Shown: piece by piece, positions 11,339 to 15,526 of the stretch
How the letters are laid out: each line of letters opens with the position of its first letter
How positions within the stretch are numbered: the first letter of the stretch is position 1
Assembly (NCBI RefSeq): GCF_001719065.1
Contig: NZ_LWAF01000003.1
Coordinates: 62,001 to 126,000 of the forward strand
Source of the DNA: Fervidobacterium thailandense
GTDB taxonomy: Bacteria; Thermotogota; Thermotogae; Thermotogales; Fervidobacteriaceae
Direction: 5' to 3'
DNA length: 64,000 bases
Notes under the pieces: generated by a model
What the model saw: the letters and a program-made list of their open reading frames with translations, nothing else
Told to the model about the DNA's origin: nothing
Database searches by the model: none
Made by a program: the position numbers and the translations under genes

Positions 11339-12745
11339 TCAGGACAAAACGATTCTGTAAAACGTGAAGTAGTCCGAATTGTAACTCCAGAAAACCAGTT
11401 TAGAGCTTAGGGTAAATCCCAAGGTTGACTTTACAAGGTCACCCACATCGATGAACACTTTAAACTCGTAATTCGTGATCCTGGCGAAATCGTTGAATAT
11501 TGGAAAGTCTTTCAGCTTCTTCCTTGTCCTCTCCAGTTGGAGGTACCGCTCCTTGCTTAACAATCCTACGAAAAATTTGTTACTATACTTGAATATGTGG
11601 AGCTGAGTAGCACCCAATTGTAGATACCACTCTTGCTTCTGAACATCACCCCTGGCACCAACTTTTGAAAGCTGAACTTCGAAATCTTTTCCCACAAAAT
11701 TGTCAAAAATAAATAGAAACTCTCCAGTTTCGATTCTTCCAGTGGTATACACGCTTGTCGACAGACTCGTGAGGTACTCAAATAGAGAGATTAACTTTGT
11801 AAGCTCACCCTCAGTGCCTTTAAACCAACTCTTCATTGACGCAATAACATTCTCGGTGTTTTGCGAGCTGATAACCATGTAGTAATTCCACGCGTTCGGC
11901 AATTCTAAAATTGCATCACTTGACTTCTTACTCACAAGCTTGGTTTTGTTCCTCTGCTCAATCGTAAAGTTGAACGATCCAGCCGAGGCAGTTGAATAAA
12001 AGATTATCTGTTCCGCATTCTCCCACTTCACAACACCGGTGCCAGGCATCTCGAGTTTGAGAGCACCCGGTTTTGCGTATCCACTAACCAAGAATGTACC
12101 TGCACGAAGCCTGTCGAAATCCCTTACGCTTCTTGCAAGTTGCATTTCCGGGGTTGCGTAGGTCTTGAGGGCAAGTTCGAGTGCCTGTTTGCTTCCAGCA
12201 ACGACGAGGTATCTTCCTGATACTCCACAGAACAGGGAATCCCCGATAATGTAGTTCGTTCCAACCTGCTTGTAACTCAAAGAGAGTAAATAAGCTAAAG
12301 CTCGCGGCAGTTTCTGCGGATTTTTGGTTTCAAAGACCACGATCGCGTTGGATGCCAAAGTCTTGATAAGTTCAAAATAGTAGTTTAGGTCGAACGCCAC
12401 AAATTCCATAAGATTTACGTCGAGGCCTTTTGAGGCGAAGAGTACGTCGCTTGATATGGCGTCCGTCACAACCTCCGGATCGATTCCCGTTCTGTATTTC
12501 ATATCCTCAAGGAGCCTCAGAAACGCATCTTCAAACCCCAAACCCTTTCTATCAAGCACGAATTTGAAAAACGTCACTTTTTTCAATTCCTGGTACCACG
12601 AACCACCTTTGGAGAAGCGAAGAACAAAATCGTAGTCCTTGTGAACGAAACTAAAAATATCAGAATTCGCAAGCATGTTGGATGTAAACACTGTGATGAG
12701 TAGAATTAAAACAAAAACCTCCAGTCTTTTCAAAAACTGGTTCAT
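11339..12745 (-). CDS. Exported protein of unknown function, DUF3352-like layout
   Basis: 468 residues, not assigned with certainty. It begins with a signal peptide or membrane anchor ([17 protein letters not shown], about residues 11-27) and is otherwise soluble, rich in beta strands. The arrangement (a [10 protein letters not shown] opening, [20 protein letters not shown], then [15 protein letters not shown]) recalls DUF3352 proteins, periplasmic proteins of unknown role; this is inference from layout only. The start has an excellent site (GGGAGG, then ATG) and overlaps the tlyA stop by 4 bases. It directly precedes cheA in the same run, which hints at a role near the cell surface or motility, but nothing in the sequence proves that. 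Confidence 0.75.
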
Positions 12746-13530
12746 CCATTATCCTCCCAGGCTCTTTCTACAACTGTTATTATATCACCATCGATAATTT
12801 CGTTGCAAACATTTTTTTCTCCACCCACACGGAAGACCGCGAAGAATTCTATATTACCTTCCGCACCCTTCATCTTGGAATAGGTGAGGTATTCGCAGTC
12901 AAAACCAGCCTCTCTGTAAGTGGTAAGTACCGCTTTTATCGCTTCTACGTGGATCAATTTGTCACGCACGACACCTTTGTGACCCTCTGGAATTTCGAAT
13001 TGTGGTTTAATCAGTACGATGATCTTTGTTTTGGCTGATGCAAGCTTTTTAACAGTTTGCACCAACTTTCTGACGGAGATAAATGAGACGTCTATACTTA
13101 TGAAATCGAGCTCCTCCGCGATCAAACTCGGATCAAGCTCTTTCGCGTTCGCGCGAATCGGGACGACTCGCTGGTCTCTCTTTAACTTCTCGTGTAACTG
13201 CTCAACGTTCACATCAACAGCGTAAACCTTCGATGCACCATGCTGGAGAAAGAAATCGACAAACCCTCCTGTTGACGAACCTATGTCACACACAATCTTC
13301 CCCGTGAGCTCAACTGGAAACTCTTCGAATAGTCCCTCGAGCTTGTAACCTGCTCTACTGACGTACTTCAAATTCTCAACTACTTCTACCACGTCCCCCG
13401 GGGATACTTTCTTCGAAACCTTTGTGCACACAATTCCATTGACCTTAACGTGGCCATTCTCGACCACCCAACGGGCTTTCGACCTCGACTCGACGAGACC
13501 CTTTTCCACCAAAAAAACGTCTAAACGCAT
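12742..13530 (-). CDS. tlyA: TlyA-family 2'-O-ribose rRNA methyltransferase
   Basis: About 262 residues: an N-terminal S4 RNA-binding domain (MRLDVFLVEKGLVESRSKA, with VENGHVKVNG) followed by an FtsJ/RrmJ-type Rossmann methyltransferase domain (VCDIGSSTGGFVDFFLQHG for SAM binding, YAVDVN, ISIDVSFIS, IVLIKPQFE). TlyA methylates cytidine 2'-O in 16S and/or 23S rRNA. Its loss is known to affect motility in some epsilonproteobacteria. The ATG at 13530 shares its first base with the preceding stop (TGATG); a GTG at 13554 is possible. The next gene overlaps by 4 bases. Confidence 0.92.
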   Translation of the reverse strand: MRLDVFLVEKGLVESRSKARWVVENGHVKVNGIVCTKVSKKVSPGDVVEVVENLKYVSRAGYKLEGLFEEFPVELTGKIVCDIGSSTGGFVDFFLQHGASKVYAVDVNVEQLHEKLKRDQRVVPIRANAKELDPSLIAEELDFISIDVSFISVRKLVQTVKKLASAKTKIIVLIKPQFEIPEGHKGVVRDKLIHVEAIKAVLTTYREAGFDCEYLTYSKMKGAEGNIEFFAVFRVGGEKNVCNEIIDGDIITVVERAWEDNG

Positions 13531-14888
13531 CAATTCTGAAGATCCAGCACCCACGTTCCCACATCCGTTAGAAGGAACATCTTATTTGATTTCACGAAGA
13601 AAAAGAATACCTCGTTCCCGATGAACGTGTCTTCAAGGAAAATCCCAAAGTTTGTTCTAAAAAGTCTTGTAACGCTGGGGTATACGGGTTGTGAATAGAG
13701 GTAACGATCAGTCCCAGAAGGTTCCCGAAAACTTGAGACCACCTTTTTCTTAAGAGTTTTACCAAATTCCAAAACTCTGTCCGTGGTCTCGATTAAAATT
13801 CCACTCTCAGTTCTACCAAGTCTCTTAAAATCGGGAAAACGGTCGTTGTAAATTATTCTGCGTGTTTTGATGTCAAGAACATAAAAATTTCCGGCAACAT
13901 CAAGAATCGTAAGCAAACCATCGTAAACCAGGAAGTCCACGGGCGTTTGGGAAACTTTCATCCTCCAGGAAAGTGAGGAATCGGAAACACTACCATCCGC
14001 GAAAAGAACAATGTTATCCCATATCGCCAAAACTCTGAGGTTGTTCCAGATAGTTCTCGTTCCTTCGATCATTCTGTCCACGTAAAGTTGACGCGCCCCA
14101 CTAGTAACTATTGGAATTTCGTAAAGAGCCCTTAGGAGATCGTCCTGAGTGTTGAACTTGAGCTTCGGATCGTAAACCTCGCCAGAAAATGTCACCATGC
14201 CAGGTACGTAATCGAGATTCCTTGAGACAAGGAGTGGTAGTCCGTAGCCAGGTATGATCTTCAGCTCACCATCTCTACCAACGAACACGGTATCGGGAAC
14301 AGTTTTTTGAAATTCGGCACGCTTAGTTTCCGTACTTTCAGCTGATTCTTCACTTAACGAGGGCTCAAAACCCGTCCGCTTCAGGATTTCGCTTAACACA
14401 AGAGAAAGGTTTTCAAAGTTAAGATGATCGGCTGGAATGGAAAAAATTATTTCTTCCCCACAAGAAAACGTACGAAAGTCGACAAGCCTCTCGTCCCGGT
14501 GAACGTGAACGTTTATCTCAGCAACTATCTTCCGCTCAAGTTCATCGCTTGTTTGGTTTGTAAAGAGTTTGTAGGAAGTTTCGCGATCCTCCAGAGGTAC
14601 ACACCCAAGTTCAACCAACACCCGTCCAACAGCGTAACGCAAATCGGGAGGAATTTCCGCCCCATAGTATTTCAGTTGAACGAGCGGTAGGTTATACCAT
14701 CTTTCCAGAAGGAGTTCGAACAGTGCACTACCTGTGGAACTTCCAACCTCCAACGATATTTGGGTGTATGCGGGAACTATGCTTAGAACAAGACACGGTA
14801 CAAGAATAAGCCATGCGGTGGTGCCAATCCTGCGGATTCCGTACGATCTTTCGATAGCAATACCTCCTCGATCCTTTCCGGTGGCCAT
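13530..14888 (-). CDS. Exported protein of unknown function with propeller-like C-terminus
   Basis: Up to 452 residues. Around residues 20-42 there is a basic then hydrophobic signal peptide (RRIGTTAWLILVPCLVLS, ending VPAYTQ). The middle has helices (LFELLLERWYNL, RYAVGRVLVELG); the second half has repeating beta segments such as NFYVLDIKTRRIIYND and LRVLAIWDNIVLFADGS, like PQQ or WD-type propellers. No enzyme motif is seen. The only ATG that includes the signal peptide is at 14888, which overlaps truA by 106 bases; a GGAGGT at 14862-14867 sits downstream of it and could serve an ATC or ATT start, so the exact start is unsure. It is translationally linked to tlyA. Confidence 0.7.
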   Translation of the reverse strand: MATGKDRGGIAIERSYGIRRIGTTAWLILVPCLVLSIVPAYTQISLEVGSSTGSALFELLLERWYNLPLVQLKYYGAEIPPDLRYAVGRVLVELGCVPLEDRETSYKLFTNQTSDELERKIVAEINVHVHRDERLVDFRTFSCGEEIIFSIPADHLNFENLSLVLSEILKRTGFEPSLSEESAESTETKRAEFQKTVPDTVFVGRDGELKIIPGYGLPLLVSRNLDYVPGMVTFSGEVYDPKLKFNTQDDLLRALYEIPIVTSGARQLYVDRMIEGTRTIWNNLRVLAIWDNIVLFADGSVSDSSLSWRMKVSQTPVDFLVYDGLLTILDVAGNFYVLDIKTRRIIYNDRFPDFKRLGRTESGILIETTDRVLEFGKTLKKKVVSSFREPSGTDRYLYSQPVYPSVTRLFRTNFGIFLEDTFIGNEVFFFFVKSNKMFLLTDVGTWVLDLQN

Positions 14889-15526
14889 TGATGAGTTCCA
14901 ACCTTTACCAGATTCGCAACGATACTTCTGACCATTCCACGCAAAAAAGAGATACCTTCCACTCGGATCAGTATCAACTCACGTCTAAGCTTCACAACTC
15001 GCACGTTAAAGATAGTTTTAACGGTGTTCTCCTTTTCTTCGTCCTTCTTGCTGAACGCAGCAAAATCGTGCGTACCAACTAAAAATCTTGCCCCTTTTCT
15101 CATAGCTTCAATGTCGAGTTCGTACGGGAACCACCAGACGTACCTTTGCAGGAAAAGATCTTTGAACTCACTGTTCAGTATGTAGTAGTGGTATATGCGT
15201 TTTTTTGCCTCGTAGCGTGGGTTGAACTTATCGTGCGTAAACCAAACTCTCCTCACGTAGATATCACCAGGTAAGTTGGCATTTAAGGCGTTCCGTATAT
15301 CGTTTTCGGACAACCTTGGATTCGGACAATCGAACGCGGCCACCTGGCCACACGCATGTACACCCGTGTCCGTCCGTCCAGCCGCCACTGTGGGAACTTT
15401 CACCTTGAAGATCCTCTCCAAAGCCTTCTCCAACTCTCCTTGGACTGTACGAACCGAAGGTTGGATCTGGTAGCCGTAAAAATCCGTGCCGTCGTAGGAA
15501 AATTCTATTGCAACCCTTTTATACAC
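14783..15526 (-). CDS. truA: tRNA pseudouridine synthase A
   Basis: Converts uridines 38-40 of the tRNA anticodon arm to pseudouridine. 247 residues. Catalytic D53 lies in AAGRTDTGVHACGQVAAF, and FSYDGTDFYGYQ at the start plus FLRGMVRSIV near the end are family hallmarks. The start overlaps the end of the GGDEF gene by 8 bases; the end overlaps the next gene's likely signal-peptide coding region. Confidence 0.96.
   Translation of the reverse strand: MYKRVAIEFSYDGTDFYGYQIQPSVRTVQGELEKALERIFKVKVPTVAAGRTDTGVHACGQVAAFDCPNPRLSENDIRNALNANLPGDIYVRRVWFTHDKFNPRYEAKKRIYHYYILNSEFKDLFLQRYVWWFPYELDIEAMRKGARFLVGTHDFAAFSKKDEEKENTVKTIFNVRVVKLRRELILIRVEGISFLRGMVRSIVANLVKVGTHQWPPERIEEVLLSKDRTESAGLAPPHGLFLYRVLF

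Follow-up and report, generated by a model that had tools for sequence, protein, structure and literature searches.

Analysis of a window of 64,000 nucleotides from Fervidobacterium thailandense identified a gene, here denoted X, whose open frame begins inside the upstream gene truA and is the -1 frame relative to it. Sequence statistics establish that X overlaps truA and that both the -1 frame and a Shine-Dalgarno sequence inside truA are under selection; by the same statistics the dual coding is class-wide and selected. The account that we consider probable is that X is exported, that its signal peptide is dual-coded with the truA tail, and that translation starts from the internal GGAGGT at an ATC codon (Table 1).

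The minus-strand gene order is GGDEF gene, truA, X and a tlyA-like gene, with an overlap at every junction, and truA and X are each present in one copy in the genome. The ATG of the tlyA-like gene overlaps the stop of X at 13530, and this gene comes after X or, where X is missing, directly after truA. The frame of X is open from 14978 to 13530. Read from the ATC, X has a basic stretch followed by a hydrophobic stretch that ends shortly after the truA stop. The part RRIGTTAWLILVPCLVLS is shared with the truA tail as far as that stop, its last Ser codon using the final base of the TAA. An h-region of selected hydrophobicity and basic residues in the n-region would suit a Sec signal peptide, with a cleavage point placed by eye, and the N-terminus of X would be a functioning signal peptide. 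At the borders of this cluster, the GGDEF stop overlaps the truA GTG by 8 nt (15519-15526), and a second protein with a signal-peptide-like start and no Pfam family is encoded after tlyA (window positions 11339-12745, minus strand).

Table 1. Features of the truA-X locus, in window positions.
Feature	Position	Strand	Evidence or remark
truA, tRNA pseudouridine synthase, 247 aa	15526-14783	minus	Pfam PF01416, E = 1.7 × 10−39
Gene X, predicted exported protein, 441 aa from ATC	14855-13530	minus	ORF and homologs in 40/61 relatives
ATG, alternative start (site 1), made by conserved TruA Trp codon	14888-14886	minus	only upstream in-frame ATG
GGAGGT, Shine-Dalgarno of site 2, within truA codons	14867-14862	minus	duplex energy -12.9 kcal/mol
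ATT, in X frame	14861-14859	minus	0 nt after GGAGGT
ATC, predicted non-canonical start codon (site 2)	14855-14853	minus	6 nt after GGAGGT
Dual-coded stretch, truA tail and X signal peptide	14855-14783	minus	overlap of frames and -1-frame selection
Predicted signal peptide IERSYGIRRIGTTAWLILVPCLVLSIVPAYT	14855-14763	minus	cleavage point inferred by eye
tlyA-like S4/FtsJ methyltransferase	13530-12742	minus	PF01728 and PF01479

The original prediction had proposed a signal peptide dual-coded within truA, with either a rare start codon or a start further in. The GGAGGT that it placed at 14862-14867 in truA is present, and ATG 14888 is, as it stated, the only in-frame ATG upstream. The ATT and the ATC that it took to be at the right distance are both in frame; only the ATC (6 nt) is well spaced, the ATT following the GGAGGT at 0 nt. 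It had also held that ATG 14888 lacks a good site, and this site is indeed weak, though not absent, with a duplex energy of -5.8 vs -12.9 kcal/mol for the ATC.

We identified homologs of X in 40 of the 61 genomes searched, the window's own included. Of the 40 X stretches fetched, 39 carry truA (in the exception, L079, truA is on another contig), and X directly follows truA in the -1 relation in all 39. The frame of X is unbroken in 38 of these 39, reaching 73 to 448 nt into truA; in L056 (g7) a frameshift near residue 70 splits X into two pieces in different frames, which reflects either a real pseudogene or a sequencing error. We located truA in 45 of 45 genomes of the order and in 101 of 103 genomes of the class, and fetched 46 more truA stretches (6 from the order and 40 from 58 other genomes of the class). 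The added class stretches extended X to further families, where only controls had been expected, and a profile of the mature part, with the dual-coded columns left out, found X at 59 of 85 truA loci. With the single protein as query, a scan of genome contigs found no relative. The profile also recovered a remote relative in L119 (f7; E = 3 × 10−6), which has an ATG start and a signal-peptide-like segment. Two other arrangements were observed beside truA: a larger exported ORF after truA in L118 and L119 (f7), which starts at an ATG within the truA end, in a different frame, and a different small membrane-type ORF in L094 and L107 (f4; 109 and 91 aa), where truA is longer and its end is overlapped in the -1 frame. 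In the four genomes L074-L077 of g3, a genus of the same family, X is absent and tlyA lies 25-29 nt after truA, which suggests that X was lost. In L096 X does not overlap truA, whose tail is not open in the -1 frame: X starts 20 nt past the truA stop and has a Shine-Dalgarno of its own, an ATG and a classical signal peptide. Since this non-overlapping X has a signal peptide of its own, export appears to be a property of the X family, the signal being written inside truA in most genomes. The comparison of orthologs suggested in the original prediction supports a signal peptide and an overlap across the class.

Because a conserved TruA tail could give an open and hydrophobic -1 frame as a by-product, we compared the tails to synonymous shuffles, in which codons were drawn from the upstream part of each truA; genomes of one genus are non-independent in the resulting counts. 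Over the final 25 codons of truA, the 58 genomes with X have 7 stops in the -1 frame vs 96.8 expected; 3 of the 7 are in the non-overlapping L096 and the other 4 (L053, L057, L058 and L080) just upstream of ACG. The 27 genomes without X have 56 stops vs 55.1 expected. L096 is classed with X and L103 without X in this count; in the start-boundary, hydrophobicity and blocked-site tests, L103, whose contig ends 59 nt after truA, is classed with X and L096 is left out. From the position of site 2 to the truA end, the -1 frame has 0 stops vs about 80 expected in the 58 overlapping genomes. The dual-coded h-region is more hydrophobic than expected in 53 of 58 genomes with X (26 of 27 site-2 and 27 of 31 site-1 genomes) and in 13 of 26 without X; in the genome of the window the hydrophobicity of the -1 frame is 2.43 vs a synonymous expectation of 1.22 (p = 0.002). 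The charge of the n-region is barely higher than expected (2.70 vs 2.08 for site 2, and 1.65 vs 1.56 for site 1). Synonymous codons at invariant TruA residues are unusually constant in the tail in g2 and g7 (0 of 20,000 resamplings each) and in g10 (p = 0.004), with GAG GTG TTA GAA fixed in 9 of 9 g2 genomes; such conservation was not found in three X-less groups, nor in the X-carrying f9a (p = 0.92) and g5 (p = 0.53). In a same-strand overlap test with X-less truA as controls, both frames are selected in the shared stretch. The proposed dual coding of the signal peptide is therefore supported by orthologs across the class and by selection on both the openness and the hydrophobicity of the -1 frame.

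Comparison of the lineages shows two positions at which a start could lie. Site 1, 103 nt upstream of the truA stop, is an NTG from a conserved TruA Trp codon, and its Shine-Dalgarno derives from TruA Lys/Arg-Val-Gly codons; this position is used in g5, g6, g10, g11, g13, f6 and f9, where the Shine-Dalgarno is mostly -7 to -9.7. Site 2 consists of GGAGGT(G) followed by an ATC at 70 nt, or an ACG at 67 nt, upstream of the truA stop, with a shift in f8 and L040, and the data point to its use in nine lineages, the window's included (g1, g2, g4, g7, g8, g9, g14, f8 and f10; 27 genomes). The genomes were grouped by Shine-Dalgarno strength at the lineage level, after looking at the data, and L065 (g12), which has a strong site-2 Shine-Dalgarno and no ATC or ACG, was kept in site 1 with its genus. 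Mean site-2 energies in the site-2 lineages are -11.6 to -13.5 per lineage vs -3.7 to -7.3 expected from synonymous shuffling, and site 1 stays close to expectation there, single genomes excepted; in site-1 lineages the pattern is mostly reversed. Both sites are at expectation in 26 X-less truA (-3.3 vs -2.9 for site 2, and -5.8 vs -5.5 for site 1). A site-2 Shine-Dalgarno of -10 or below occurs in 28 of 58 genomes with X (4.8 expected) and in 1 of 26 without X (0.2 expected).

The distribution of stops, which had no part in the grouping, yields the same boundary. In the 27 site-2 genomes, we observed 10 stops vs 10.3 expected between the two sites, then 0 vs 28.9 and 0 vs 9.1, and the counts for the same intervals in the 31 site-1 genomes are 0 vs 16.2, 0 vs 31.1 and 0 vs 10.5. 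A strong site-2 Shine-Dalgarno is present in 14 of 14 genomes in which site 1 is blocked by a stop vs 14 of 44 others (p = 4 × 10−6, uncorrected for relatedness; with one p for each of the five blocked lineages, combined p = 3 × 10−4).

Of the 27 site-2 genomes, 15 have ATC, 11 have ACG one codon on, and one (L103) has the site-2 Shine-Dalgarno and neither codon. Searching from the last in-frame stop, we found ATG, GTG and TTG to be missing before the hydrophobic stretch in 19 of 58 genomes, 18 of which, spanning seven lineages (g2, g4, g7, g8, g9, f10 and f8), have GGAGGT and ATC or ACG; L070, also without these three codons, has only a CTG, at site 1. A TGA lies between GGAGGT and ACG in five genomes (L053, L057, L058, L080 and L081), so that ACG is the sole near-cognate codon in range. 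We found no specific enrichment of the ACG codon, which is also seen, with no Shine-Dalgarno, in 4 of 4 genomes of g5 and in 4 of 26 genomes that lack X; the ACG start is therefore named by elimination. These findings suggest that in many species translation of X starts at ATC or ACG, with ATC predicted for the window.

The need for a near-cognate codon may come from TruA. An NTG in the -1 frame requires a TruA codon TGN (Cys or Trp), and the only such codons in the TruA tails are the Trp of site 1, which all 58 have, and a single Cys close to the end, which 2 have. We infer that a rare start codon is used because TruA has no TGN between the GGAGGT and the hydrophobic stretch, so that a lineage must use either the distant Trp codon of site 1 (as ATG, GTG or TTG) or a near-cognate codon at site 2; a normal start near the signal peptide would need an amino-acid change in TruA. 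Under the proposed mechanism, ribosomes would bind the GGAGGT inside truA and initiate with initiator tRNA at ATC 14855-14853 (at ACG in other lineages); the truA tail would be read in two frames, its last ~25 codons also encoding the X signal peptide in the -1 frame, and the product would be a secreted or envelope-facing beta-propeller protein.

A start of the window's X at ATC 14855 is accordingly a prediction in which we have reasonable confidence. The site-2 Shine-Dalgarno is -12.9 in this genome vs -7.0 by synonymous shuffling (p = 0.107, non-significant alone); the sister species gives -12.2, with -6.0 expected (p = 0.025). Among 50 ORFs of the window, the best Shine-Dalgarno has a median of -9.75, with 16% weaker than -6 and 23 of 50 at -10 or better, and T. 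maritima genes generally have strong ribosome-binding sites, which are strongest at 4-6 nt before the start (PMC3636130); site 2 is thus unremarkable in strength. The ATG at 14888 is a real alternative, beyond what the original prediction allowed, as other lineages use the same position at the TruA Trp codon. A start there, although rather unlikely, would use an ordinary codon and lengthen the n-region by 11 residues, and the signal peptide would be dual-coded in either case. In the window's genus this ATG is in frame, with the frame open in both g1 genomes, and the position serves the site-1 lineages with the mostly -7 to -9.7 Shine-Dalgarno given above. However, its Shine-Dalgarno in this genome is at chance level (-5.6 vs -5.7 expected), the codon itself is forced by the TruA Gln-Trp codons (probability of a canonical NTG, 1.00), site 2 is strong in both g1 genomes, and 14 genomes of other lineages have kept a strong site 2 with site 1 blocked by stops. 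Of the two options in the original prediction, we favour a rare start codon, here ATC 14855, over a start past the truA stop. The latter, in which termination-coupled reinitiation near or after the truA stop would give X without a signal peptide, is very improbable: a TTG or ATG overlaps the truA stop in g7 (positions -1 and +2) and an ATG lies at it in L034, L046, L047, L048 and L055, but these stop-overlapping codons are preceded by hardly any Shine-Dalgarno (about -0.6 in g7), in contrast to the strong sites general in T. maritima (PMC3636130), and the first canonical codon of all lies 77 nt past the stop in L037 and 101 nt past it in L051. Moreover, in every lineage the -1 frame is kept open and hydrophobic deep within truA, and we rejected this start because frame and hydrophobicity are selected inside truA and the X of L096 carries its own signal peptide. 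Least probable is a TruA-X fusion through programmed -1 frameshifting that the internal GGAGGT would stimulate, much as dnaX has an SD-like element upstream of its slip site: X is in the -1 frame of truA and Lys-tRNA could slip at the Fervidobacterium TCA AAA, but a slippery heptamer X XXY YYZ of the dnaX type is not at the site in g1, g2, g7 and g14, re-pairing is impossible at the same place in g7 (GCA CGN), g1 (TCG AAA) and g14, site-1 lineages start at an ordinary NTG, and upstream of site 2 we saw no selection for a frame open as far as the shift point, for which reasons (no slippery site, no re-pairing, no selected frame) the fusion was rejected.

The X protein appears to have an N-terminal alpha/beta region and C-terminal BamB-like beta-propeller blades, with weak similarity to PQQ_2 and BamB. 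Pfam and NCBIfam searches with the X protein of the window gave nothing usable and no PQQ_2 match, and PQQ_2 (PF13360) matches 7 of 39 members of the X family at E up to 0.05 (best 7.2 × 10−4). NCBIfam BamB profiles score 13-17 bits vs cut-offs of 285-423, below the profile level for BamB membership, and similarity to the BamB structure 4hdj in the PDB has E = 0.0027. A structure model from 5 sequences is poor (mean pLDDT 48.7); its best Foldseek matches include chains of BamB, an eight-bladed propeller (E = 2.9 × 10−4), and VIA-align places the similarity mainly in residues ~271-379, with clathrin and WD40 chains listed too, so that the fold matches of this model are no more than a hint of propeller blades. 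X resembles BamB/PQQ_2 beta-propeller lipoproteins in putative blades weakly similar in sequence and fold and in its predicted export, and differs from BamB in its N-terminal domain and genomic place. BamB-like blades would suit an envelope protein, and X may be a periplasmic or toga-associated scaffold.

We know of no conserved natural ACG start in bacteria; the AUU start of infC serves autocontrol of IF3. Non-AUG initiation at the infC AUU is cited in PMC9845219. Like infC, X is predicted to use a near-cognate codon, here with a strong Shine-Dalgarno; unlike infC, the AUC or ACG of X appears to be forced by the overlapping truA protein. PMC4683798 describes nog1/citC as bacterial genes overlapping in alternate frames, and X/truA similarly comprises two proteins in different frames of one stretch, by overprinting. 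Whereas nog1 is recent and fully embedded, the X/truA pair overprints only a predicted targeting signal, is conserved class-wide and has switched its start site between lineages. A limited literature search found no paper on a truA overlap or start codon in Thermotoga, or on a dual-coded signal peptide with a Shine-Dalgarno in overlapping bacterial genes, and truA is not mentioned in the main text of the 2013 T. maritima multi-omics paper.

Automatic annotation expects ATG, GTG or TTG and therefore probably truncates or misplaces members of the X family, hiding their export. The locus illustrates how overprinting can place a signal peptide on a housekeeping gene, and related genomes that carry truA with and without an overlapping X, and with two alternative start sites, provide a natural experiment in which stable non-AUG initiation in bacteria becomes directly testable. 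On balance we lean towards a Thermotogota-wide situation in which the TruA sequence, having no Cys or Trp where one is needed, dictates the start codon of X. AUC in some lineages and ACG in others would then be natural non-AUG starts that are stable in evolution, with a near-perfect Shine-Dalgarno to rescue them, and possibly set a low or IF3-sensitive level of expression.
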